A stretch of 64,000 nucleotides of DNA from Melampsora larici-populina 98AG31. Taxonomy: Eukaryota > Basidiomycota > Pucciniomycetes > Pucciniales > Melampsoraceae. Where the stretch lies: the NCBI RefSeq assembly GCF_000204055.1, contig NW_006768797.1, positions 691,380-755,379 on the forward strand, read 5' to 3'. This document shows, piece by piece, positions 16,171-33,325 of the stretch (position 1 is the stretch's first letter; every line of letters begins with the position of its first letter). The translations under genes were made by a program, and so were the position numbers. The notes under the pieces are model-generated. The model was given only the letters and a program-made list of their open reading frames with translations, was not told the origin of the DNA and searched no databases.

Positions 16171-17505
16171 TCAAGATACAATCGGAAGGCCCCCAGATTC
16201 CCAATTGTAGGCCACTGCATAGTCTCGCACTTCCTCACGCTTGGCCCTCCCTTGCTCAATGACCGCAGGATCCGCAGTTGAACCACCTTGGAAACGACCG
16301 GCTTCACCAGGTTCGGGCAGAAGTAATTCCCCATCGTCTTCTTGCCAAGTATTGCCAAGATCCGCCAGCATATTATGTAAGATAATGCAGGCGCGGACCC
16401 ATTTGAGGAGATGTTCCATATCCTCACGACGATTCAAAGAAAGCCTTAAACCTTGCAGCGAGGCCCAACAAGATTTGAGGATCCCAATACAATGCTCATT
16501 GCGCACGCGTGCTTTGGCCACACACCAATTGAAGTCCTTATTCCTGTTGACTTTGGCAGCCTGGCCCTTATACGATGGCACCACGGTTTCGGATGGCACG
16601 TAAGCAGAATCCGCAACGATGTATTCTCCTGGCAAACCAAGCAAAAACAATCAGACAATGATCATGAGAATGCAAATGGAAAAACCACGTGGAAACATAC
16701 CTCGATCAAAATATCGCTCCGGGTGAATGGCTATCTCCGTTTTAGAATAAACGGTGCTGTCACAGCAAGACCCAGGCCACCCAGCGTATGCATACGTAAT
16801 CCTCCGGTCACAGTCACAAATGATCTGCACGTTGATTGAGTAACGATGCTTTCTGTCAAAAAAGACCTCACCGTCTCGGCCAGGCCGCTGGAAAAGAGGT
16901 ACTGTCGTTCCGTCCACAAATCCCACACAACCTGGGAATCCGTCACGCGCCAGCACAGTTGAGATTGCCTTGCGCCTATTCGAATTTGGCCAACTGAGAT
17001 AGTGTCCTCCTACTTCTAGAATAGCGTGAATAACCCGGCGGGTACAATTGATCACTGAGCCATGAGCCACTTTGTAGTTCCGAGCGAAACGTCCCACAGA
17101 CGCACCGTTCCCATTACTGCCGAGTCTCTCCAAAGTGATGGCCAGTTGCTTCTCAACCGGAGGCTGAGGATTGTTGCTTGAATAGATGAATACAGGGTTG
17201 TCTTTGATCAAATCGAGCAGCGCTTGAAACCCTTCTGGGGTGGTTCGCATTGCCTGACGAAAATCAGTCCTTCGCGAGCGTAGCATATCGCGTAAGTCGA
17301 AGGGCGTGGCCAGAGGTGCCCTTATACGGTGAGTCAGATAATGTCTTGATGTGACATGAGCAAGCAAATCGCCCCATTGATCTTCTTGAGCAAAGAGCTG
17401 ATTGTACAAATGAGCCATTTCGGGAAACTCGCTGAACAGATGGTCACCTTCTGTTGGGTTGTTGGGATCGGGGCTTTCTCCTGGGAATCTTGGGTCCGAA
17501 TCCAT
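16171..17505 (-). CDS. PIF/Harbinger DDE transposase (HARBI1-like)
   Basis: This enzyme cuts the element out and inserts it at a 3-bp target. On the minus strand the exons are 17505-16701 and 16628-16171, joined by a 72-nt intron with GTATGT and CAG ends, giving 420 aa. Catalytic blocks are visible: FVDGT (first Asp), GWPGSCCDSTVYS with EYIVADSAY (second Asp region), and RVRNEHCIGILK (Glu). The HTH-like N-terminal half contains ITLERLGSNGNGASVGRFA. Translation could start further upstream at 17622, but MDSDPRFPGE at 17505 is the more natural start. No stop or frameshift interrupts it, so it may be active. Confidence 0.93.
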
Positions 17506-17970
17506 TTGGGCAGACACACAAAGGTGAGTCAGGTCTCGTAATACAGAGACCCTTTCGGAAATGCAGGGCATATTTGGGTAAGAGGTTATTTGAGGATGAG
17601 GATTGTGTTGGTATGTTGGCAAATGAGATAGAAGAGGAATGCAAAAGAAGGAATGAAATGGGGCAATTTGGTGGAACTATTTCCCTGACTTATCTCGTCA
17701 AAAGCTAATAAAATGAATTCCATTTCAATCACATGAAATGAAAGATGTTCGAGCGAAGAAAAAAAGATGCTTGACCTAGGAAAACCCTCAGGGGAAACCA
17801 AAAAAAAGACCATTTCAAAAAGGTGGACCTGATTTTAGGTTGCTTTAAAACCACTTTTTACAGCGTTTGTGAACAAGCGGACAAGAAATTTAAGGTGCGA
17901 ACGACGTTAAAAATCAGTTCGGGACTTGGCGCCGCAAGTGATCGCGGTTTGCTACTTGAACCGCCCTATT

Positions 17971-18941
17971 TAAAACAACACTGCTTTAATTTTGAATAAG
18001 AACTGCTTTTGATGAGAAGTGATTTACATCATTGTGCAAACAATGCAAAACAAAAAGTATAATGTGATTGGAGTAAAACCAGACCAAAAGTGCAAAAAGA
18101 AGCACTGGAAATTACTGAGCCCCATTGTTTACCATGACCACATGAAAAAAGGATTTGACCAAAGACCAAAAGCATTGCCACCTATTGCAGTCCAAATTTA
18201 AGTTACCATGATACAGTGTGTTTTTTCATAAAATCCAACAATAAGACATCTTCATTGATCTTTTTATTCTGAAAAGTTTGTCTAGTCAATAAAACCAACT
18301 TCTTTGTATTTCAAATCAACAATGAAACCAAATTTTTATGGTGATCTGAGCAAATCAATCCAAAACGTAGAGTGTCATGATTATAATTTATATGCAAATG
18401 AGAAAACAAGTGAGAACTTGCACATCTTTTGTTTTCTTTTTGCCCAAGGCTTAGAAGTCTGTGAGTGCCAAACTACCACACCCTTCTCAATAGCCTCATT
18501 CCAATCTTTGTGTGTGGGAGACAAACATTTCAACACAGAGGCCTTTTGATGAGATTTGTCAGCCATGGAATTTGACAAGCTTCGACTGCATCTCATGGGT
18601 TGCGGGCTCGGGGCTGAAACCGGTGTTCATCCAGGTCCCAGTGACCGGCGAACTCAAGTCCATCCTGCTCCAAGCTTGCGTGTTGATATACACCACAGGG
18701 GTGTTTTGCCCACCTGCAGGCGGTCCATCCAGGCCACCGGGAGACGGTCTGCCCTTCTGCAAAGGTAGGCGGTCTCCAGGTGGCCCTCACGCGCGACGTC
18801 GGGCAGGCACCTGCTGGGCTCGCCGGTAGGCTGGCTTGCTTGCGCCCGCTGGCGGGCTGTGATCTGCCTTCCGTCCATCAAAAAAGCAGTTGTACACAGT
18901 ATGTACATTAAGGACAGAACCATGTCGTAGTCCTCAAGCAG
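17971..18941. other. Spacer between the Harbinger and CACTA elements, with a GC-rich patch
   Basis: The first 600 bases are AT-rich without a gene. From about 18600 to 18870 the composition turns GC- and CpG-rich (CAGGCGGTCCATCCAGGCC, GTCTCCAGGTGGCCCTC). A related patch is found on the other side of the CACTA element at about 30380-30540, which also carries GGTGGCCCTCA. These look like parts of a GC-rich repeat family. I would not annotate the open frames that overlap it. Confidence 0.45.
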
Positions 18942-18944
18942 ATA

Positions 18945-19254
18945 CACTACACGCAAAGTGCTGACGCCGCGGGGCCGGTCTTTTGAAAACTCCCGCGGGG
19001 TCAGCTGACCCCTTGTACGATATGGATCTGGGGTCAGCTGACGCCAATCACTGCTCACCTACATATATACACATCACTCACGATCGATTCTTCCAACGAT
19101 TCCTTCAAGACGAGATCAACATCGCTTTCAACCAATCATCGAACTGTCCATATACCAGCAAGGTGATCAACGCTGACCGGATTCAGTGCTCTGATCACCT
19201 TGTGGCCATTGAGATAATCACAACCGGATTTGTGACCTCATTGTCTTGGTTGAA
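18945..19254 (+). repeat. Left terminal inverted repeat of the CACTA element
   Basis: About 310 bp match the right end with only a few mismatches. It contains the perfect 16-bp palindrome GGGGTCAGCTGACCCC, a second related site (GGGGTCAGCTGACGCC) and a CATATATACACATC segment that resembles a TATA-type promoter. The palindromes are candidate transposase-binding sites (inference). Confidence 0.9.
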
Positions 19255-20363
19255 GACTCTTTGCCTCTTCGATTTACAACGCTCGAATCGACTCATGCCT
19301 GTGACAGTGTACCCGTCAACATCTGAATTACCATCGCGCCTTGGACACTTTCAGCACAAGTTCATACAGCACCGACTTCTTTTCAGATTTACAAACTATA
19401 CATCTTTTTGTACAAATCTTTAGCTACCAATCTTTAGCTCGTTTTTCAGGATCGGGATCAATTGAAATGACCACATCCACGATCTAACCCCTTTACATTG
19501 AATGTCATCCTGTAAACCGTTGACAAGATCCAAGATTAATCAAAATTCAGAAATCAGCTTTGTTTCATCAAACCCAAAACATAAACCTGATTGGAAAGTA
19601 GCTGTTTGGCCTGTGTGTTGTCGGCCTCTGAGCTACGAACCAGTGGGTCATAAGGCCTTCTATCAGTCAGTTAGGTGTTCCCTAGCTTTGGTCAAACATT
19701 GATATTAATTAAAATTTCACCCAAAGATTCAAAAGACCCTGGAATGCGACTTCATCTTCTGAACAGTTACACTATCGTGGATGTCTCAGCTCTCATCAAC
19801 CTTCTATCCTTGAGGACCCTTGTCAACAACATATACGAAGGCAAACGATTGCTCCAAACTTGTCAGTTCCCTGACTGGAATCACAAGAATTCACCACTCG
19901 ACCTACATACTTTGACCTTCTTCATGACCAAGTTAGGAAGTTTCAAAATTTCAAACCTCTGGGTCAGGAATCTCCCCAAAGGATTTCTCAAAATCATTCG
20001 TTCTGACATGTATCCAACATTGGTATGAGGGAATTGAGACCCTTGCAAAATGCTCATGATTGGTGAGTAATATTCTGATAGTTCCGATTTCTTCCACATC
20101 TGCCATCCCACTTGCTTAAAAGCTGAGTTTGTGTCTATTGCTCGCTCTATCTCCTGAACCACCCCTTTCAATCCGCTCGCTTGATTTCACATTCATTTTC
20201 CAATTCATTTGCTCTTTCCATTAGCCTGCTTTACTCTTTTCGTCAAAACCTTAATACAAACTCTTTGATAAATCCTTAATATCTTCTCTTGATCAAAACA
20301 TTATCAATCAATTGTTTTGCTTGTCTTGCTGCGTCTCTTTGTCATAACATAAATTTCATCGCA

Positions 20364-22340
20364 ATGGATCTCAAACAACTTGCTTCAACTGTAGCCTTTC
20401 AGATGGAACAGATCGCCATCCTTCAGGACGAATTGAAGAAGAAAGAAGAGATTCAAGATGACTTGGTCAAGCGGCTTGAGTCTATGAGCGTATACCACGA
20501 AGATCTCCATCAAACCCCCAAATCAAAGAACGGCTCAAAAGGAATGATCAAGAGCACCCAATCCAACAGTGGACCAAAAACGTCACCTTTGAAAAATCGA
20601 CCGGGGTCACAGTCTTCTAAGCCGAAAGGCCAAACATCTGCCAAAAAGAACAAAACCCCTGAAAAACCAAAAAAGCCCAAGTCGACCTCTTCAAAGCCAG
20701 TTTCTACTCCGGCAACTCCTTCTCCCAAGAAAAACAAGAACCAAATGATCATGAAGGAAACACCTGAGGGTTTCAAAACCACCAAGGTATATCTTATCTG
20801 TGTTTCAAGGATGCTGCCCTTTTGCTTCATCTCGATTTGCTAGAAGCATGAACTGACCCTGTGTTCTTGATATGTATCAGGAAGCCTTGTACTGTTTTAT
20901 AAAGGTCATGTGGGGGATGGTCGAAGCTGGTGCTGTACCACCACCACCGTCTGTCGACAATATCAGAGAGTTCACTTCCGCCTTTTCAAGCAGTGACGAA
21001 ATCCAGCACGTTATGAACAGCAGCGCGGCTCGCAAACTTGTTCCTCAACACGAAGTCCTCACTCTCACAGGCATCAAGTCTGGCCGCAGGAAGATGGGAA
21101 GGCACATCATCAACATCAAAGAGTTCTTTATCAGCATCACCCAATCATCCCTTGCCAAACTTGGTATTCGAGCATGGGGTCCTAACCTTTTGGAACCAAT
21201 TGACTCCTTATGGAACGAGGCTTGCCGGATGAGTGCGCTCATGATTTTCAGGAGAGTGGCTATTGGTGGAGCTTTTGATTACATGAACATCAATAGGACT
21301 TATGTACAGAATTTTGGGCTGCTTGAGGGTGCTTATAATCACTACGTTCACTATGTGATGTCAGCAAAGTACAAGAAGGAGGCAAAAGAAGAAGGGAAGA
21401 ATGTGAAAGACGAGGAGAAAAAGGTCATACAAAGAAGCCGCCAACGTGTAATGTTTCTTTGATCTTCTCCCATGCTTCTTTTTTCCTTCAACTGGTATTC
21501 AAAGCTCTTGACTGATGTTGTGTTTCGTGGATTCAGCTGCGTGATGCTAGGGTTAAATTTGCCACCAATCAAGGCTTCAAACAAAGGTACCTTGACCTCA
21601 TTTCTCCCATCGATGCCCACAGCGATGACAAGTACAGCGAGAAGCACAACTGTCACATTGTCAAAACCCTCGAGTACCGTAGCAACAACGCAAATGCTTT
21701 CTTCGTGCGCCTGACTCAAGAGATGGAAAAGAACAATCGGCTAGAAGGAAAGCGCCCTCAAGGTCGGATCAGGCGTCGTCCCAAAATTGCCGTCATGTCT
21801 ACAATTGGCCGCCCGCCAAAGAACATGCCAATCGACTTCTATAACCCCTCCTGGTTCAATGAACTCACCGATGCTCAAAAAACCAAGGTTGCAGATGCGT
21901 ATTGTGTTGCCCTCCTCCCGAATGCCAAGTTGAGCTTTTGTGCTGTCTCAGGTGCTGATGAGAAGCTTGGTGACAAAGCTTTCAATGCAAAGTTTTGGGA
22001 TCAAATTACCGGTTTTTACAATCTGAGTCATGTGATTGGTTCCGAAGAAGACAACGAAGATGATGAAGATGACGACAATGAGGACAGTGACTACGATGAT
22101 GACATTGATCTGGAGGATACTAGTGGTGAAGACGATGACGACGAGCAGGACAACAACAAAGATGATGATGGCTTTGTAGCTGCCGATGATGGGGTGGATG
22201 GAAAGTTTGATGATGACGAGTTTGATGATGGTGCTGGTGACAAACATGATGAAGACGGTGATGCTCAAATGTGGGAGGAAGAGGATGCTGCTCGCGAGGC
22301 CAGACAAGACGAAGACAATTATTGGAATCAGTGGCAATGA
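20364..22340 (+). CDS. CACTA accessory protein with basic N-terminal and acidic C-terminal regions
   Basis: Exons 20364-20786, 20881-21447 and 21537-22340 give 597 aa with all junctions in frame. The start MDLKQLAST leads into a short coiled coil (about residues 1-45). A Lys/Pro/Ser-rich linker follows, then a folded central region (about 145-420) with GIRAWGPNLLEPIDSLWNEA and IGRPPKNMPIDFYNPSWF. The last 110 residues are almost all Asp and Glu, ending EDNYWNQWQ. I cannot name a family. By position it corresponds to the second gene of CACTA elements (TnpA role: end binding), which is inference from context. Confidence 0.8.
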
Positions 22341-22534
22341 TAGTGCGCACCATCCTGTTCAGTCCTGTTGGTAAGTATCCACAATCGTCAATGGCAGTGA
22401 GTTTGGTATGCTCACAAAACTTCCTGCTCCTGTTTGACATCTAGCTAGTCTCAAGTAGCACTTTTGAAGCATTCGTGGCTGGGGGGAAATGGATGTGGCG
22501 GGTTTGGTAATCCTGTGAAAAATTGCTTTCTAGC

Positions 22535-22815
22535 TTAATGAAAAAATCGAAAAAAATGCGCTCAACTTTACACCTTCTTAACGGTCATTACTGGTCATCG
22601 GTTTTCCTTTTTATCACTCCTTCTGTGGGCTCTTCTGAATGATAAAATCCAAAAAAATCTGCTCGACTTTACGCTTTCTAAACAGTCTTTACTGGTCATC
22701 TGTTTTCCTTTTTATTCTTCTTTTGGCTCTTCTCAATGATAAAATCCAAAAAAATGTGCTCGACTTTACATTGTCAGCACGGTCTTTACTGGTCATCTGT
22801 TTTCCTTCTGCCTGG
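22535..22815. repeat. Three direct repeats of about 95-100 bp
   Basis: Units contain AATCCAAAAAAAT, CTCGACTTTAC and a nearly constant ACTGGTCATCTGTTTTCCTT. They stand head to tail without spacers just after the accessory gene. They could be transposase-binding repeats or simple duplications in the 3' region. Confidence 0.7.
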
Positions 22816-23283
22816 TTGATTTTGTTTGAGATCTGTCTCTGACTCAATTTTGTACCTACCAAATTATGTGTTCCTCTTATCATTTCTTGACGGTCGTTAC
22901 AGTATTGAAAATTTGATGTTTGTGGTTTCTTGGAAACTTGTGTCTGAGGGTCGCGCATTAAGTGCTGAGGCCCCTGAAAAATAAGTCCTGAGGAGTTGCC
23001 ACCGCTTTACATATGCCCTTGGTTGACAACAGAGGTTGTGTGTGACTTGGCGAGTCATTTGCCTTGTATAATAATCAGAGTTCACAAAAGAGGTGGGCTA
23101 CTTAATGCGAGCCGCTGGACATATCTGTACTTGGACAGAAGACCTCCCATAGCACTCTATAATGAATACTCGAAGGGTTACAAATCCTCATCACCATCAT
23201 CAATCATCCAAGAATCTATCATCGAAAATCAAGAAGGAATCTGTCCTCATGGTCCTTCTTGACCAAAACTCCTTAGCTTTTAG

Positions 23284-24429
23284 GGTTGGAAAGAATGTGA
23301 TTCAAATCGAAAATATCATGTCAATTGTCATTCTTCAGTTTCAATCATCAATCATTCATCTTCTTCAACTGATCCTAATCTCATTCACAATCCAGCTATC
23401 ATCTCAAAGCCAATTCAAAACACTTCTAATTCCAATTCGACTTCATCTCCTCAATCCAATCAATCTCATCCTACTCATTCAACTCTCGATCTTCATCACT
23501 CCAACTCTTCAAATCATCAACAAGACAAACTGAATCGCAACTCAAGTCTCTCTCATCCTACTCCATCTCAAGCTTTTCTCAATCTCAATTTGACTTCTGC
23601 CTCATCTTCAATCACAACAAATCGTGATCAGGATCCTGCCGATTCCTCAACCCAATCCGATTTCCTAGAAACTCCATTACCTTTGTCTACATCCGATCAA
23701 GAAAATCTCGATCACTGTGATCCATACACTGGAACTGGTACAGATCAAGATCCACTCAACACACTCTCATCTCGTACCAACTATGCATCTTTTGATTGTT
23801 CAGCTTCGATTCATCAATCATCGAAATCATCTAAATCAGCTTCTTCTATTCTAAACGAGAAGAAAGATAAATATATGCTCACACCTTGTCGAGCTCCCAA
23901 TCAATCTAAGAAGAATAAATCAAATCGATCATCTACTCATCCAACTCATTCAGATTCAAACTTTGTGATCTTTGAACTTGGTGATGAGATTGAAATCGAT
24001 CATGTCGTATTGGCTAATTATGAATTCTTTAGTTCAATGTATAAGCTCATCAGAATCACTGTTTCTAATAGTGGACTGGGAGGTGCTGGTGGGATTAAAT
24101 GGGTAGAGGTGGGACGATTCAAAACTAGGAATGTAAGAGGAATTCAGGTTAGTCAAATTCAATCTCTATCTTGGTATTGATAGATGGTTTGAAACAATTC
24201 ATCTTCTTAGGTATTTCCAATTAAACATCTCAAGGGATTTTACAGATATGTTCGCTTAGATTTCTTGTCCCATTATGGTTCCAAATATTTTTGTCCTCTC
24301 TCCTTGGTGAGAATCTATGGTCTCACTCAGATTGATGCGTATGGTCGTGATGAAGAACTCGAAAGAAGAAGGCAATTGGAACTTAAAGAATTTGAAGATG
24401 ATTTACAAGATCATGAGAAAACATGCTAA
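23284..24429 (+). pseudogene. Captured host gene fragment: SUN domain of the Slp1/SUCO family
   Basis: Slp1/SUCO proteins are ER/nuclear-envelope membrane proteins with a lumenal SUN-like domain, involved in membrane-protein folding and stability. Exons 23284-24147 and 24211-24429 encode a low-complexity Ser/Asn/Thr-rich region and then a full SUN domain: NYASFDCSASI, KDKYMLTPC, VVLANYEFFSSMY, LSHYGSKYFCPLSLVRIYG. The fragment starts after an in-frame TAG at 23281, with CTTTTAG as a possible acceptor, and has no convincing start or signal peptide. It stops about 25 residues after the domain, before the coiled coil and membrane segment of real family members. It lies wholly inside the CACTA element, so transposon capture is the best explanation. 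The frame and the intron are intact, so it may be expressed. Confidence 0.85.
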
Positions 24430-24558
24430 ACAAAAAAAGGTTGGAATGGTTTTACAATGATGTTTTTTTTCTTGTTTTGGAACAAGTTTTATATTAAGAG
24501 TTGTTAGTTTCCATAACAAATGTGATATGAGTTGTACAAGTAACCAAAAACAAATGCC

Positions 24559-24778
24559 CGTGGTCAGTTTCCCCAGAGCGTTCAAATGAAAACCCACATC
24601 CCAATTTACAAATGAGTATGGCGATGGTTCGGGTCAAGAATGCCCAAAACAAAGTGGGAAAATTTTGGAGTCGTCAGTTTACCCTGAGCCTTCAAACAAA
24701 CAGCTCTCTCCAGACTTCCACAAGAGTATGTCGATGGTTGTGTCAAGAATGACCAACCCAAAGTGGGTTGGTTTTTTG
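24559..24778. repeat. Two imperfect direct repeats of about 107 bp
   Basis: Both units run from GTCAGTTT through TTCAAA and GTATG.CGATGGTT to GTCAAGAATG and AAAGTGGG. They lie between the SUN fragment and the next gene of the CACTA element. No function is evident. Confidence 0.65.
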
Positions 24779-25109
24779 TTTTGCTCAGCATATGTACGGG
24801 TGATGGATGTATTATGTGAACATGGGTAGGGTCCATTCCTCCCAATCAATGTGTGTGGAATTGGTCCGACCAATACTTTTTGTTTCAAAAAAAAACACTG
24901 AACTTCATTTGAGCGAAATGGGTTATATAAACCAGCGTATTCCAACGGGCTTCATGAGCACCCCTCAGGAGCCCCTTTCTTTCTTTCCTGTGCTTACCCA
25001 AACCACAATTAACCTAGTCGGTCTCTTTTATCTAACCTCCATTGTGGTCAGAAAGCTCACTATTTTGATTTCTTGTTCTTTTGTTTCCAAAGATTACCCA
25101 AACTCAGAA

Positions 25110-25895
25110 ATGCAACTTGACATTGCTCATCGACTACCCATGCGTTGGAGCAGTATATTTTGGATTGGAAATGAGGTTAGTCAAGAGTCTATATGTATGT
25201 GAGTATCAGCTGACATGATATGTTTAGGTGGGCATACCCAGTTGTTCTCGTGTAGCTCGAAGGTATTTCCAATCCAACGCGATATACCACCATCAAAGAG
25301 GCCTTGCGCACACCAAGTTACTAATTGCAGAGGAGGTGCCCAAGCCCCTACTGAAACCGATGCGAGCTTACCGACTTGAAGGGCCCATCATTACAGGGTT
25401 GGAACGTCAAGAATCAGTGTTGTTGGTCAACCCAGATCACACAATCGCTTTTGATGAAGCTCAAATCCGTTGCTATGAACTGGCTAATAAGGTCTCTGTC
25501 ACCGGTGTTGGTCGCATCATCAACACAGCCCGCATTGGAGGTCCACACAATGAATTCTACGGGGAGATGGTGACTGTTCTGCATAGAGATTGGGATCCAA
25601 CTGTACGTGGGGTTCTGCTTTGTATATTTCAGGGTTGTCTACTAACCCTCAATTCAATAGACCTTGCGCTGGGTCGAATTTATTGCTACCTATCAATGTG
25701 ATTTGCATATAGTGGTTTGGCTTGACATGGATGTCCTGAAAGTTGGGAATGTCGTCCAATTCAGTGGCAACATCATAGGGACTTCTGCAAACGTGTGGGT
25801 GGTCAAGGTGAGTTATTCATGAGCATACCAGTGTCTCATATATTGACACAGTGACTTTGTAGGTCACCAACATTTTGCCCTTTGGGTCTCCTTGA
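25110..25895 (+). CDS. Small unknown CACTA-encoded protein
   Basis: Exons 25110-25175, 25228-25602, 25661-25807 and 25863-25895 are all in frame, and a good CTAAC branch site precedes exon 3, giving about 206 aa. Segments include LLVNPDHTIAFDE, GVGRIINTARIGGPHNEFYG and DMDVLKVGNVVQFSGNIIG; the last resembles a strand-rich OB-like motif (inference). An upstream in-frame ATG at 24952 would add a hydrophobic N-terminus, so the start is uncertain. I do not recognise the family. It could be a third transposon gene or another captured host piece. Confidence 0.6.
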
Positions 25896-26436
25896 CCACA
25901 AAAGAAGACCACCTTGCTATCACTACATTTACATTTTCTTGGTCTTTCCACTTTATAAATCTTCAACTTTTGTTTCCTAGTAATTTTTTTAGGCCCTTTA
26001 ATGTATGAGTCCCTTATTATTTTTCTGCCTTTGCAAATGATTCAATTTTTTACCTTTCTCACAGTCGCTTCCCCAATTGTATACCCAGATGTGACCTGAT
26101 GTGAATTGAGCCAATTTTTCAACCTTTTTGAATCCACAATCTAAATGCACTTTACCCTCTGTAAAAACTGTTGCAGGTTTTTTATCGGCAACTCCCCAGA
26201 AAGTTTTTAGAGGGAAGCATTCATAGAACAACAATCACCCAATCCACTCCCTTTTCTTCAACAAACATTCCATTCAAGCTCACTAGCCAAGGTTTCAAGC
26301 ATTCACTATTCTCCTCACTTCGGCCGCTTGAATGTCAGTAGAAACAGAAATTTGATTTTCATCACAGGAACATCACATTTGAGAAACAACGATTTTTCAG
26401 ACATAACATAACACATATGAACTGCACATCACTCGA

Positions 26437-29318
26437 TCACAACTCTAGTGTAAGACACTCAGACACAATGTTTTCTTTCACATTAACAAGAACTGAGGGC
26501 CCTTCATAGCCAAACGACCATGCTGCCAGTATCCGGTAAGATTGGGTTGCAGTGACTGAGCCAGCTGGAATGAACCTGTGTAATCGGATATCTTTCAATT
26601 GGACCAAGCCCATCCTCTTCAATACCACATCTAATGCCTGATTTTCAATTACCTCTATTCTGCGGACACACACCAAAGAATCTTCCTCATCTTCTAGCCG
26701 TACCTTCAAGCAGTGAGTCACTATACCCCATGTGCGGACACCATTTAACATATATTCCACCAATTTATTTCCTTCATTCTTATTAAACTTGACTCCACCT
26801 ATGCCTTCCATTGATTGCACTTCAGTTGCAGATGGCGTTAAGACTTTTGCCCCTTCAGCATTTTCCAAAACACGATAATCAGTCCATGCCGCATTCTTCT
26901 GTTGATAGTATTCTAAAAGTGCCATATATGTGTGATCATCCATTTCAAAGAGACCACCATCAGCCTTTTTTGAGATGTTTCGAGGAGGTGAACTTTTTCG
27001 ATACAGTTTTTGCACTTGACAGAATCGATTCATCAAAGACTTTGCTGTTTCCTCTAGCGAACCCACCCATTAGCAAATGTCAGCTTCATTGATCAGTTGT
27101 ATTTCCTAGTCCACTTCTGGTAATGGTCAATAAACTTACCCATTTTTCCATTTGTGTGCATCTTCTGCAGCATCCCGATTAACCTCTCTCCTGGAAACTC
27201 AGAGACGCTTAGCAAAGGACCATACCATTTCATTTGAGCCAGTGTGTGTAAAGCATAATGATGATTTGGGACGATGTTGATGTCGTCAGAGATACCCGCC
27301 GATGTAGAAGTGTATTGTTCATAAATTTCCCCAAATCTTTTGCTATCAGATGCAGTTACTTTCCTAGCCTCAATGAGATGAGTACACTCCACCAACGCCA
27401 CAAAATTCTCCAGGATCAAGTAGTTCAAAGGTTCGCTGTCACCACTTGAAAACTTTTGATAGTCACCAATAAAGACATCCAATGCAGCGAGTGGTAAGTG
27501 AGTGGCAAATAGCGAGTGCCACTCACTTGCCTTCAACTTTCCATTTGCTTTTGTGCCAAGTCCATTAGGCACACGAGTAGTTCCATGTGGAACAACCACC
27601 TGCCGCAAGTTTTTCAAGATCTTCTGCATAATCTGTTCGGATAACCATCCAGGTCCACTTGGTTGTTTGTTTTCGGTTTCGATGTCGACAGGTTGCATGT
27701 CGACGCTATCATCCAAGTTGTTCTCAAATACCCACCGATATCTAAAGTGGTGTTGTAGGACACCCTCAAACCAATTGTGCATTACCCCTAATCCCACACT
27801 CTTCACCGGATCCCAGTACTCGAGTCGGTTAAGTTCTGACCACCGCACACCAGTTGCTTTACGTGCATCGTCTTGCGCCGTAAGAGTTTTGCATTCCTTC
27901 CAGTGATGAGCAGCATTTAATACAGACCTTCGATCTCGTAGTCGACCTATCATCATCAACCCCCTCTCTGTATTGAGACAGTTACACCATATACAAAACA
28001 TCTTGCCTGCATGAGATGTAAAGCCTGCCACTTTATGAGTTGCCACGCTATCACCAATCAGGCATCCCAGCCGCACCGTTACCTTCCGACCTTTTGGATA
28101 TTTTGGAGTGGGGACTGACAATCCTTTGTCAAGCTGGATTAATTCATCGACTAGAGGGGTGAGGATATGTGTGATTGTAGTCATACTTGGCTGTCCGGGT
28201 GCTGGGACTACACCTGAAAGGAAGGTATGTTCAGGTTTCTGACGCATTTTGGGTGGTAGATTCATGCAATTTAAGGCCACGATTCCGATCGAAAGTTGGC
28301 GACCGGAGATTTTGTTGCCCAGTGGATTGAACCAGTCGATGAACAGGCTGAAAGCCAGATTCAGAGGTGGTGGGCTTCCTTTACGAGAGTTGGAAGGTGA
28401 ATGTGTACTTTTTGGAAAGAGTTTTTTCCATCCCGGTGACTGTTGATAGTCCACAACTTCGTCAATCGGAAAAGATTGTACTTTCTTCCCCCAATCATCG
28501 ATAGAATCCTCAACCGTGTCTAGGGAAAGGAACCACTTGATCCAATCCTTCATTGGATGAACGACAAAAACTGAATGAGGTCTCTTCAGTCGTGGCATTC
28601 TAGCGCTTTGAATCTTCTGTGATGATACTTTTTCGATGACTGGTAATTGAACAAGTTTTGGTGAAACAAACAGCTCAGTTGCACAGAGCTTGGTTGTTTT
28701 TCGTTCTCGGTAGCCGCATTCCGGTGGACCATATTCGATATCGTACAAAGAGTAACATTTTCGGCAACATGCATAACAGTCGATTACAGGATTGAGGTCC
28801 ATTCGCTTGGTGATGGATCGCACATTGTTGAGAATGTCTTCATCCAAGTTCACTTTAGTCCGACTTTGTGCAACCATTTGAGCAATAGAAACAATATAAT
28901 CTCTCGCGATCCTACAATTTGATTGACTGAGCCCACACACAAGGTATAACCATGCCAAAAAGTACATTAAGAACCCTAAAAAACATCCAACGTGAGTGTC
29001 TAATCCCGCTTTTGGTTAATTGAGATGTGGTAGCTTACCGATGATATTTTGAGGACTGATCTCTGATGAATGGTCGCTTTCATCACTAGAACTGTCTTGA
29101 TTGGTGTTTGGTTGTGTAGTGGTCTGAGTGGAAGGCGACGAGACAAAGAGCTCAGGAAACATGGCTTGAATTGTAGCTTCTTCGGATTCATCTGCTCTTT
29201 GAGCCCAGTGCTTCTGTCGAGTGCTGACGTGTACCAGCTGGCCATTGACAGCCTTGCCAGTATCGTCTATTCGAGTGCATGTGATACACTTAGGACATTC
29301 ACAAATAACCAGTCGCAT
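26437..29318 (-). CDS. TNP2-type CACTA transposase
   Basis: This is the transposase expected to cut at the CACTA ends. Minus-strand exons 29318-29039, 28975-27140 and 27053-26437 join in frame to 910 aa. The N-terminus has a Cys pair block (CECPKCITC) and another Cys cluster (CYACCRKCYSLYD). The TNP2 core is clear: FNPLGNKISGRQLSIG, NLPPKMRQKPEHTFLSGVVP, GDSVATHKVAGFTSHAG with FCIWC, and GVMHNWFEGVLQHHFRY. FPGERLIGMLQKMHTNGKM is followed, across the last intron, by EETAKSLMNRFCQVQ, as in relatives. No stop or frameshift is present. It runs opposite to the other genes of the element. Confidence 0.93.
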
Positions 29319-29790
29319 CTCGAGATTGAGTGATTGGTATTGAAAGGGTCTAGATTTGATGCACCAAGGAGGTTATGCTATGATTGCACGATTTTTCTTC
29401 AAGGAAATAGGTATATAAGAGGTCTAGTGAAATTGAGTCAAGTTTGATAAAATTCGATAAGCGGAGTCAAGTTCGATAAAGTTCGATAAGGGGAGTCAAA
29501 TTCAATAAGAAGTATGTGAGACGTTTGGTATTTTGTGCGTTGGTAGAATGTTGAGTGTGTTAAATGATGATGATCCAATTTGTTAGATGATTTAGATCAA
29601 GCTACAAAGTAGTAAAGAGTAATGGTGTGAATGTTTGAAATTGAACAAGACATTCATCTAACAAGAAACTTACAATGTCTATCTTGTGATATGAGTTTTT
29701 AAAAAATTCGAAGCGAAGGTTGTCGAAGAATAGAGATGTGAAACAGAGGGTCCAAAGATGTTGAGTCGAAATCGATTGTAGTCGGTCCAG

Positions 29791-30125
29791 TTCAACCAGG
29801 ACAATGAGGTCACAAATCCGGTTGTGATTATCTCAATGGCCACAAGGTGATCAGAGCACTGAATCCGGTCAGCGTTGATCACCTTGCTGGTATATGGACA
29901 GTTTGATGATCGGTTGAAAGCGATGTTGATCTCGTCTTGAAGGAATCGTTGGAAGAATCGATCGTGAGTGATGTGTATATATGTAGGTGAGCAGTGATTG
30001 GCGTCAGCTGACCCCAGATCCATATTGTACAAGGGGTCAGCTGACCCCGCGGGAGTTTTCAAAAGACCGGCCCCGCGGCGTCGCCGCGACCCCGCGGCCC
30101 CGGCGTCAGCACTTTGCGTGTAGTG
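29791..30125 (-). repeat. Right terminal inverted repeat of the CACTA element
   Basis: It matches the left repeat almost base for base but carries an extra 25-bp GC-rich segment near the end (around 30075-30105, of the type GGCCGCGGGGTCGCGGCG). It contains the same GGGGTCAGCTGACCCC palindrome. The terminus CGTGTAGTG is followed by the ATA duplication. Confidence 0.9.
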
Positions 30126-30128
30126 ATA

Positions 30129-30904
30129 CTTCAGAATCTTCATGAAGGATTTGTTACTTCGTATAATTATATACAAAAACAAGCGACTCCGAGTTCAAAC
30201 CTGAGCCAGGATCATCACGAAAGACACCAATCATATCGTGATATTGGTTTCACGAGTGATTAGCGACTCTTGATGTCCTCCAGACTCGAACTTGACAATG
30301 ATATCACGTAAAAACTACACTTGGCAACCTTCTTTCCAGGTCATTGATCGTTTTTTTTGCAAAGGTTTGACAAAATTAGCAGGCAGACAGGCCGCCACCG
30401 CGTATTTGGTCTGACGATGGCCCAGAGGCCGACTACGGCCTCGATTTCTCTTGTCCATCTTCAGGCGGTCAGCGGGCCGCCGATCGATGGCCTGCCAGCC
30501 GGTCTACAGGTGGCCCTCAGGAATGACCATTCTCAGACTAAGAAAGGCCATTTCTAGACTCAAAGCCCCTCCGTGGTGTAGAATGATTGATGGCCTGTTC
30601 ACACATGAACCACCGACTCGAAACCCTTCGCTATGCCATCCTGTAAGTCGTATTGATCATCAAATCAGGATTCGAGGGAGATTCACATGTACGGCGCAGT
30701 GCAATTTATGTACTGTGCTGTTAAATCAAGTGTTTGAAGTTCGACCATGCTTGAGGTCCCCGTTCCCCACCATGCTTTTAGACCCCAAATCTTCATCATC
30801 TTACCATGATCTGAATCCTGACCTTCTTATTGAAACCGTAAAATTAACTCGGTCTCATCGGCATTCAGTTGAGCGAACTTCCGAGGATTCCTTTCCCTCA
30901 CTCG
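30129..30904. other. Spacer with a GC-rich patch upstream of the transporter gene
   Basis: Bases about 30380-30540 form a GC-rich patch (GGCCTGCCAGCCGGTCTACA) related in style to the one at 18600-18870. From 30771 an open frame starts with ATG and codes a Ser/Asp/Glu-rich segment that would make a natural N-terminus for the transporter, but it falls out of frame at about 30946. Confidence 0.45.
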
Positions 30905-33325
30905 ATGAAAACGCGGATCACATGCCACTGGTGTCAACGGACGAATGAGGATCATGAATCAAAGGAGCCAGAGTCACAGCCTCTCGGAGTTTTGAAGATT
31001 CAGGCTGCAAGCAAAAATTTGACTCGTTGGCAATTAGGCTGGATGTACTGCTTTTTTGGCCTTCTGGCTTGGTCGCTATCATTAGGTGAGTTACTTCAGA
31101 CATAAAAATATCTTTTGGAGATTTTGGATCAGAACTTCGCTAAGTTGTCAAAAAATCTCAGACCAATATACCGCATCCACATACCTCGCCGAGGCTACAG
31201 CTACTTCTTTCAAAGCTCATAGTGTTCTGGCCGCCATCAATACGATCAAAGCGGTTGCTCAGGCTATCTCACAGCCTCCGATTGCAAAACTTAGCGATCT
31301 AGTGGGTAGAGTCGAAACCTACGTTCTCTGTGTCTGTCTTTATGGAATCGGTGAGCACTCAGGCAAAAGAGACCAAACATCGATCGCTCTCACTTTGGCT
31401 CTTCTTCATGAGCAGTTTATTTGAACTGACTTTCACTCCAGGATATGTGATGGTGGCTACTTCCCAAAGTATCTTTTTATACGCTTTTGGTACGGCGACC
31501 AACATCCTTGGGATCACCGGGCTCTACCTTTTACAGGAAATCGTGATTGGTGATGTATCTTCGCTGCGGAATAGGTTGTTCTGGAGTATATTCCCTTCGG
31601 TCAGTACGCTAGGCCACATTATCAAAGACACTTGACATAAATCAAGATGTGCATATCGTCGAGCAACGCCTGGTACGATTCACTGACTCTGTAACCTATC
31701 TCTTTCCAGGTGCCTGGCTCGATCAATGTCTGGTTGGGTGGTAATTTAGCAGAAACCATGCTTGATCGAAGTACTTGGAGGTGGGGAGTAGGCATGTTCG
31801 CAATTATGACGCCCATACTCTCCCTCCCAATCATATGCTCCCTTGGTTATACTCAGTATCGTACCCGACATGAGACTAGAGCAGCACGCTCCGTTAGCTT
31901 GCCCGGCTCATTTCTTGATAAAGTTCGACATTGGATCATATTGATCGATGGCATCGGTATACTCCTCCTCTTAGCCGGGTCCGGATGTATCTTGATAAAT
32001 ATTACAATTGCAAACGCATATGGTTCAACCTGGGGATCCGGTTCGCATCTTATTTTCATATGGCCTTGGCTGTGCTCTGGGCTGTCGCATGATTTGGGGC
32101 TGACGTGATCTTCCCACCAGCACATTCCATCATCCTTTTCATCGTCGGCGCATGTTCATCGATCGGATTCGTATTTTGGGAGATCTACGGGGCTGAGAAG
32201 CCTTTGCTACCATTATATCTAATGACGAACCGAACGGTAATGATTGGAATGTTATTAGCGATAGCACATCCAGCTGCTGGGAGTATCGCTAGCGATTACT
32301 TTTACACCTTCCTGGTTGTTGCAGCTAAGTATGTGGCTTTTTCTGCGTGAAGTTTGAAGCAATCTCAGCTGATGTCATTCGTTCGATGCATGTGTGTAAT
32401 TTGCAGTCAATCGGTCTTGAGTGCTACTAGGATATCTGGCTTATCTACCTTCATTTCAATCTTCTCCTGTCTATTTGCTGGTGCGGTGGTGAGCAGGCTA
32501 AGAAGGATTAAATGGATCATTATAGTAAGCCATGTATCATCTTGACTTCTCTGCTTACCAGAATTCACTATTGACATAGGTGTGTGATATTTATTAGATC
32601 GGCGCAATTTGTGATACACTTGGGCTCGGCTTGATGATACGGTACCGTGGATCTGAAAATTCGCTTTTCGAGCTGGTTTTACCACAGCTCTTTCGAGGAT
32701 TTGCAGAGGGTTTAGTCGGGTTTCCAGTACAGGCCTTGATTCAGGTCAGTCTAAGAGATATATCTGCTCTGGAGGCCGAGCAAGCAAGTTGACTTTTTCG
32801 GATCGATTAGTCCATGACTGCTCATGAGCATCTTGCTTCGATAACCGCGATCTACCTCACAATCTTCTACCTTTCTGGTGGTATTGGTGCTGCGATAGGT
32901 GGCGGGATTTGGGTCAACATGGTACCTAAAAAACTCCACGCTTATATACAAGATCAAGATACGGTCAACTCGGCGTACGGTGATCCTTTTAGTTTCGCTC
33001 AAGCTCACGCGCCCGATAGTCCTGAGAGACTTGCGGTAGGAAGAGCGTACACTGAGACGCAGGCAAGTCCTTTAGCTATCAATTCACCTACTGTCTTTCA
33101 TAGCAGATTGAATATACAACAAAGGCTGATGTCTGAGGTCTTGCCTTTGTGTTCAAATGATAGAAGGTAATTTTGACGGTGGCTACCGCTATCGCAGGCA
33201 TCAGTATCATTCTTGCTTGCTTTTTAGATGATCCACAAATGCCAGATTTACAAAGTCGACCAGAAGCAGAATTGATGAAGATGGATGACGGATCAAAATC
33301 AGATGATCAGATTGAAGATCTTTGA
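30905..33325 (+). CDS. MFS siderophore-iron transporter (SIT/ARN family)
   Basis: These plasma-membrane or endosomal permeases import ferric siderophores. Exons 30905-31085, 31162-31350, 31442-31599, 31710-32040, 32121-32328, 32407-32524, 32598-32744, 32811-33062 and 33167-33325 join in frame to 580 aa. Family blocks are visible: AKLSDLVGRVE, LYLLQEIVIGDVSSLRNR, FPSVPGSINVWLGG, and the C-terminal YLSGGIGAAIGGGIW, with about 12-14 hydrophobic segments. Intron 8 has a GC donor in a perfect context (CAG|GCAAGT). The N-terminus is odd: a better start at 30771 reads until about 30946 and returns to the transporter frame if one base is removed. The gene may therefore start at 30905 or carry a one-base lesion or sequence error. 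Confidence 0.85.

Follow-up and report, generated by a model that had tools for sequence, protein, structure and literature searches.

A partial SLP1 gene with its intron inside a CACTA/EnSpm transposon of the rust fungus Melampsora larici-populina

How does a piece of a host SUN-domain gene come to lie between the genes of a transposon, and does it still do anything there? This question is raised by a locus in a window of 64,000 nucleotides, the whole stretch of DNA that was analysed (positions 691380-755379 of contig C33 in genome G000, whose assembly comprises 98.3 Mb in 243 contigs). Our answer is that an autonomous-looking rust CACTA/EnSpm element very probably took up an unspliced part of the SLP1 gene and then moved, and that the fragment is now a decaying passenger. 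Positions are those of the window unless a contig or locus is named.

A single CACTA/EnSpm insertion and its own genes

The limits of the element and of its target are as follows.

18945-30125: CACTA/EnSpm (CMC-type) transposon, 11,181 bp, delimited by inverted repeats, ends, ATA duplication and uninterrupted target copies
18942-18944: target-site duplication ATA, left copy
30126-30128: target-site duplication ATA, right copy
18945-19254, plus strand: left terminal inverted repeat, 310 bp
29791-30125, minus strand: right terminal inverted repeat, 335 bp
18689-18944: left part of the target, a repeat of about 0.7 kb; 7 other copies, 97-99% identical
30126-30581: right part of the target repeat; other copies mostly 97-99% identical, one piece 95%

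Over their whole alignment the two terminal inverted repeats differ by four substitutions and one 25-nt indel. Complementarity is 99% between the arms 18963-19254 and 29791-30082, and 96% between 18945-18972 and 30098-30125, the outermost ones. The element begins with CACTACACGC and ends with GCGTGTAGTG, ATA flanking each end; it thus has both the 5'-CAC..GTG-3' ends and the 3-bp duplication by which a passage of PMC12730594 defines CACTA/EnSpm elements.

The element landed in one copy of a dispersed repeat, about 0.7 kb long; at the insertion point, seven further copies are uninterrupted. At these 7 other genomic places both target parts stand side by side. The matches of the two flanks share exactly 3 bases in six of them; at the remaining place they meet without overlap, since each match ends two bases early. 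Farther right, two of the seven copies are shortened or gapped. The flanks joined with a single ATA aligned without gaps to each of three fetched copies (372, 365 and 361 bp, 97.5-98.1% identity). Since seven other copies of the repeat lack the interruption, both CACTA ends belong to one element, and 18945-30125 is a single insertion whose pre-insertion target is known. The earlier note had considered that the two ends might come from separate elements flanking an ordinary gene; the ATA duplication and the uninterrupted target copies rule this out, and its claim that the SUN fragment sits between transposon genes and inside the CACTA ends was correct.

No second copy of the element was found at the DNA level in searches of the genome with the inverted repeats and with internal parts. 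Elsewhere the inverted repeats matched only by about 100 inner bases (77-90%, 8 places), and internal parts only in short pieces. To the left of the element lies a PIF/Harbinger-type DDE_Tnp_4 transposase frame (16651-17676, minus strand; PF13359, E 3e-11), and at 30850-33170 (plus strand) are open stretches that, by eye only, resemble an intron-broken membrane transporter gene.

Within the element we recognised, apart from the SUN fragment, three genes.

26437-29372, minus strand: transposase gene; the main open stretch is 27093-29015 (640 aa), with further open stretches on its flanks at 26437-27069 and 29016-29372
20280-22340, plus strand: tnpA-like gene; open stretches 20280-20843, 20857-21462 and 21516-22340; acidic C-terminus
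25110-25895, plus strand: ORF X, the second spacer gene; about 200 aa in three exons, open through two introns on inspection

The main transposase stretch contains no internal stop and matches PF02992, Transposase_21 (E 7.4e-8, 32.3 bits against a cut-off of 28.6). In an alignment of five sequences, four of them relatives, the D, D, C(2)C, H(3-4)H and E positions, assigned by eye, are conserved in it, with motifs including CIWC and HHYALH. The relation to Transposase_21/tnp2 and the placing of C(2)C and H(3-4)H between the second D and the E are those given for CMC transposases in a passage of PMC12730594. The flanking stretches are 27-39% identical to related elements. At least 100 stretches in the genome encode protein relatives of the transposase, the nearest at about 53% amino acid identity among the 69 of 398 candidates that were scored. 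Outside the genome, a sequence designated P0121 reaches 84% (all 105 hits examined), and the nearest named sequences are from rust fungi.

The gene at 20280-22340 gave no family match; it is called tnpA-like after plant CACTA elements. In three related elements, frames next to the transposase share 46-49% identity with its middle stretch and 37-40% with its last; its first stretch finds a 31% match in one of the three. This gene and the transposase gene are convergent, and the 4.1-kb spacer between them holds the SLP1 piece and ORF X. Judged by these reading frames, the element is apparently autonomous and should be able to move itself.

ORF X is possibly a second acquired gene. Its relatives (23-48% amino acid identity) number about 40 in other parts of the genome, and all of these lie more than 10 kb from any of the transposase matches listed. 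Its main exon has no Pfam match at E 0.1, and a search of the three related elements that were read found no match to it.

The SLP1 fragment and its native counterpart

The captured stretch has the following parts.

23195-24414, plus strand: captured SLP1 fragment, 1.22 kb; part of exon 1, the intron and the 5' part of exon 2
24148-24210, plus strand: intron kept in the fragment, 63 bp, GT...AG, with 3 differences from the native intron
23260-23262, plus strand: premature TGA in the captured SLP1 frame
23281-23283, plus strand: premature TAG in the captured SLP1 frame

The earlier note had proposed a search of the same genome for the full-length SLP1 gene. One near-complete SLP1 gene was found, on contig C61 (locus L030), with a three-exon model of 1022 aa. 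The fragment matches the minus strand of this locus at 1168 of 1232 aligned positions, or 94.8% with the intron included, and 61 substitutions separate the two over 1220 colinear bases, an identity far above chance. The native intron sits at the same place as that of the fragment. The native model has a hydrophobic start, a central SUN domain and a late hydrophobic segment, signal and anchor being judged by eye against yeast Slp1, which has its signal sequence at residues 1-21 and its membrane segment at 541-560 (PMC3516490, in part). The C-terminus of the model is uncertain, because its stop adjoins a run of unread bases and because a relative, P0001, is longer (1264 aa). Among the best 120 of 715 protein hits, the best relative of the native protein is 78% identical, and the nearest named SLP1s are those of the rusts Austropuccinia, Puccinia and Cronartium.

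Homology with the native gene opens about 59 codons into exon 1 and stops near native residue 446, ahead of the late, anchor-like hydrophobic segment identified by eye. The mid-protein SUN domain that marks Slp1/SUCO proteins is present, damaged at invariant sites: the exon 1 frame alone matches PF07738 (E 1.2e-8, 35.5 bits against a cut-off of 22), and the stretch spanning both exons scores 64 bits (E 8.9e-16). The signal sequence and the C-terminal membrane segment of such proteins are missing, both ends of the native gene lying outside the captured stretch. The Slp1/SUCO SUN domain with an intact intron, cut off on both sides, that the earlier note had described is therefore real. Its start at 23284 has to be moved to about 23195, and the open frame that it reported runs, once the intron is spliced out, only from 23284 to the fragment's end; the frame opens there because the TGA and the TAG stand directly upstream in the homologous frame, so that it is closed on that side.

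In a DNA search of the genome the captured sequence occurred at two places only, the CACTA element and native SLP1. A search for the SUN family gave 24 matches in the genome, and tblastn of the fragment against 24 sequences (23 fetched loci and the window) hit the window and the native locus only. A protein database search with the fragment returned 72 hits, none near-identical over its length; native SLP1 is itself absent from the protein databases (best 78%), and the missing near-identical hit therefore says nothing about expression or spread. No solved structure lies near the Slp1 SUN domain by sequence (2 hits, best E 0.55, an unrelated enzyme). Twenty further strong SUN-domain matches (L009-L028) appear by eye to be Sad1-like proteins with a C-terminal SUN domain; several form near-identical pairs and others are apparently diverged paralogues, which would make an expanded SUN family in this rust.

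Several of the fetched SUN-gene loci have a second version that agrees with the first over kilobases, at about 90-99.8% identity; an assembly containing parts of both nuclear haplotypes would be expected to show such pairs. The end of a short contig (L038, 508-2232) carries a 3' part of SLP1 that is 89.8% identical to the native locus over 1219 aligned positions and then 99.6% over 505. It is possibly a second haplotype, and suggests that divergent haplotypes exist; the contig stops before the captured region.

Do other members of this transposon family carry the cargo, as the earlier note had asked? The comparison covers three related elements, on contigs C36, C46 and C24. That on C36 (778591-785094, 6,504 bp) has a spacer of about 350 bp and no clear target duplication; that on C46 (345529-352027, 6,499 bp) has a TTA duplication and a spacer of about 490 bp. 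Both ends of each were located, and the SLP1 fragment is absent from both spacers. These short, cargo-free spacers rule out a cargo common to the family; within this genome, at least, not all members carry the fragment, which is present at two places only. The C24 element, whose ends were not located, has a spacer of 2.0 kb in which no host gene was found: this spacer matches only two places (C5 and C55, 77%), both beside transposase relatives. At C46:343501-343857 (L029, 4801-5157) lies a SUN match whose frame is interrupted by two TAG codons. This pseudogene is about 1.7 kb outside the C46 element, which rules out a second SUN-bearing CACTA there.

These observations fit the history that we consider very probable. 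The CACTA element would have gained an unspliced part-copy of host SLP1 in the spacer between its tnpA-like and transposase genes. Since the intron is kept, the capture would have passed through DNA, and the copying probably took place while a break or gap within the element was being repaired. Later the element would have moved with its cargo into its present site, a copy of the 0.7-kb repeat. If rates are alike, the capture would be older than this insertion, because the target copies differ mostly by 1-3% and the fragment from the native gene by 5%; being captured before the present insertion, the fragment would already have travelled. As there is only one copy of the element, we infer transposition with the cargo rather than see it.

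Decay of the fragment and possible roles

Since its capture, the fragment would have mutated without constraint at the protein level. By the NG86 method, 24.5 synonymous and 33.5 non-synonymous differences separate it from the native gene (Ks 0.100, Ka 0.038); the values are Ka 0.016 and Ks 0.088 in the SUN part, and Ka 0.061 and Ks 0.112 in the N-terminal part. Native and fragment differ at 31 amino acid positions, the two stops counted. With P0001, the 78% relative, as outgroup, 21 of these changes are new in the fragment, 3 in the native gene and 7 unclear. Four residues invariant in all 7 SLP1s compared are altered in the fragment (R267Q, C322G, E402K and R422G). Six SLP1s (P0001 and five of rusts, named or of this genome) share 111 invariant SUN positions, 5 of which are changed in the fragment; of all 187 SUN positions, 7 are changed. 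The changes strike invariant SUN residues as often as chance predicts. Important sites are not avoided, which is what a sequence under no protein constraint should show. RIP is ruled out as the cause of the decay, with 33 transitions, 28 transversions and no excess of C-to-T changes.

Two aspects of this divergence call for some caution. First, in a rough model, the Ks of 0.10 exceeds the neutral expectation for descent from a direct ancestor of today's native allele (one-sided P 0.03). Second, substitutions that change amino acids are scarcer in the SUN than in the N-terminal part (7 of about 33, P 0.0009); the contrast has P 0.008 when the unclear changes are assigned to the fragment and P 0.11 for the 21 polarised changes only. 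Part of the divergence may therefore predate the capture, or constraint may have held for a time. The donor may already have been unlike the C61 allele, either a divergent allele or the gene of a close species, and such an allele would explain both the Ks excess and the contrast.

The excess also bears on whether the element and its cargo came from a closely related rust, with the SLP1 of that other species as donor. Such an origin would agree with the element having no second DNA-level copy, and with a nearest in-genome transposase (about 53%, among those scored) that is more distant than the outside sequence P0121 (84%). However, the fragment is nearer to SLP1 of its own genome (92% amino acid identity) than to P0001 (78%; native SLP1 and P0001 share 82%), and the donor therefore belongs to the same or a very near species. 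Moreover, pairs of loci in this assembly differ by several percent, the 3' end of SLP1 on L038 among them, which could account for the Ks excess. We regard an origin in another rust as unlikely.

Could the fragment act through RNA? Read-through from the two convergent genes between which it lies would putatively yield dsRNA, and small RNAs from it would act on native SLP1. Of 1200 21-mers in the fragment, 474 are identical to the native locus, the intron included, the longest identical run being 98 bp, and Piwi-domain matches over the cut-off are present at 3 genome loci (C50, C27 and C65). Against this, the fragment bears no sign of selection and exists as a single genomic copy. We consider a silencing source improbable, and a shade more so the full proposal that the convergent arrangement turns the captured fragment into dsRNA whose small RNAs would tune SLP1, the gene of an ER membrane protein, in the fungus.

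A functional SUN protein, dominant-negative as the earlier note had suggested or otherwise, is very hard to reconcile with the fragment, even though its frame stays open past 23284 and its SUN signal is still detected. Two stops stand upstream, and the first in-frame ATG past them is at 23875; a product begun there would lack the native start and have a length of about 160 aa. The signal-bearing start of the native protein was not captured, and there is therefore no obvious route into the ER lumen. The stops, the late ATG and the invariant SUN residues hit at the rate of chance together make a dominant-negative protein unlikely, and the fragment probably has no protein function. Least credible of all is an ordinary second SLP1 gene between two unrelated CACTA ends: its position alone would suggest one, but the inverted repeats match, the ATA is duplicated, the target is uninterrupted in other copies of the repeat, and the fragment is truncated on both sides. 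The fragment most likely does nothing, and is a passenger of the CACTA element.

Comparison with known systems

Among the open-access papers listed, none was seen to describe a captured SLP1 or a Pack-CACTA element in a rust. A rust transposon catalogue includes CACTA elements (PMC12210899, in part), and in the portion of the fungal paper PMC10853768 consulted the term Pack-CACTA occurs in the reference list only. The cases of host-gene capture by CACTA elements that we found, in papers seen in part, are from plants, and the fungal captures that we found are of histone H3 by hAT elements. At the present rust locus, a single genome contains the native gene, the uninterrupted target and the cargo-free sister elements together, and the case shows that in fungi, too, a CACTA element that bears a transposase can harbour host DNA in unspliced form. 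Furthermore, the spacer between the two convergent genes offers a fixed spot at which to search other elements for cargo. The locus would gain in importance if the fragment did yield small RNAs.

The earlier note had called the locus a Pack-CACTA capture. What stands is that a fragment of host SLP1 was taken up by a CACTA element: as in the Pack-CACTA and other Pack-TYPE elements of plants (PMC8903248, in part), a host coding-gene fragment lies between CACTA inverted repeats. However, Pack-TYPE elements are described in the same passages as non-autonomous, without functional transposase, whereas here the tnpA-like and transposase frames are kept, the latter with a predicted main stretch of 640 aa free of internal stops; moreover, the host is a fungus and the element has one copy. 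The strict label does not fit, because an open transposase frame is kept. The soybean CACTA element Tgm-Express1 (PMC1947982, in part) likewise carries fragments of host genes, with both exons and introns preserved. It holds five of them, sits in a gene and is spliced into its transcripts, whereas the present element holds one recognised fragment and sits in a repeat.

Among fungi, the ascomycete hAT elements with histone H3 (PMC3538342 and PMC6710886, both in part) are also transposase-bearing DNA transposons with a captured housekeeping-type gene, and their longer form is called likely autonomous (PMC3538342). They belong to another superfamily and have many copies, unlike this single-copy CACTA element, and the hAT capture of PMC6710886 is intron-less and RIP-damaged, whereas here the intron is kept and no RIP signature is seen. 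The rust EnSpm elements with TET/JBP genes (PMC12730594, in part) share the CAC..GTG ends, the 3-bp duplications and the presence of an extra gene. However, TET/JBP is there thought to be an accessory gene that aids the transposon, whereas the SLP1 piece is a broken fragment of a host gene.
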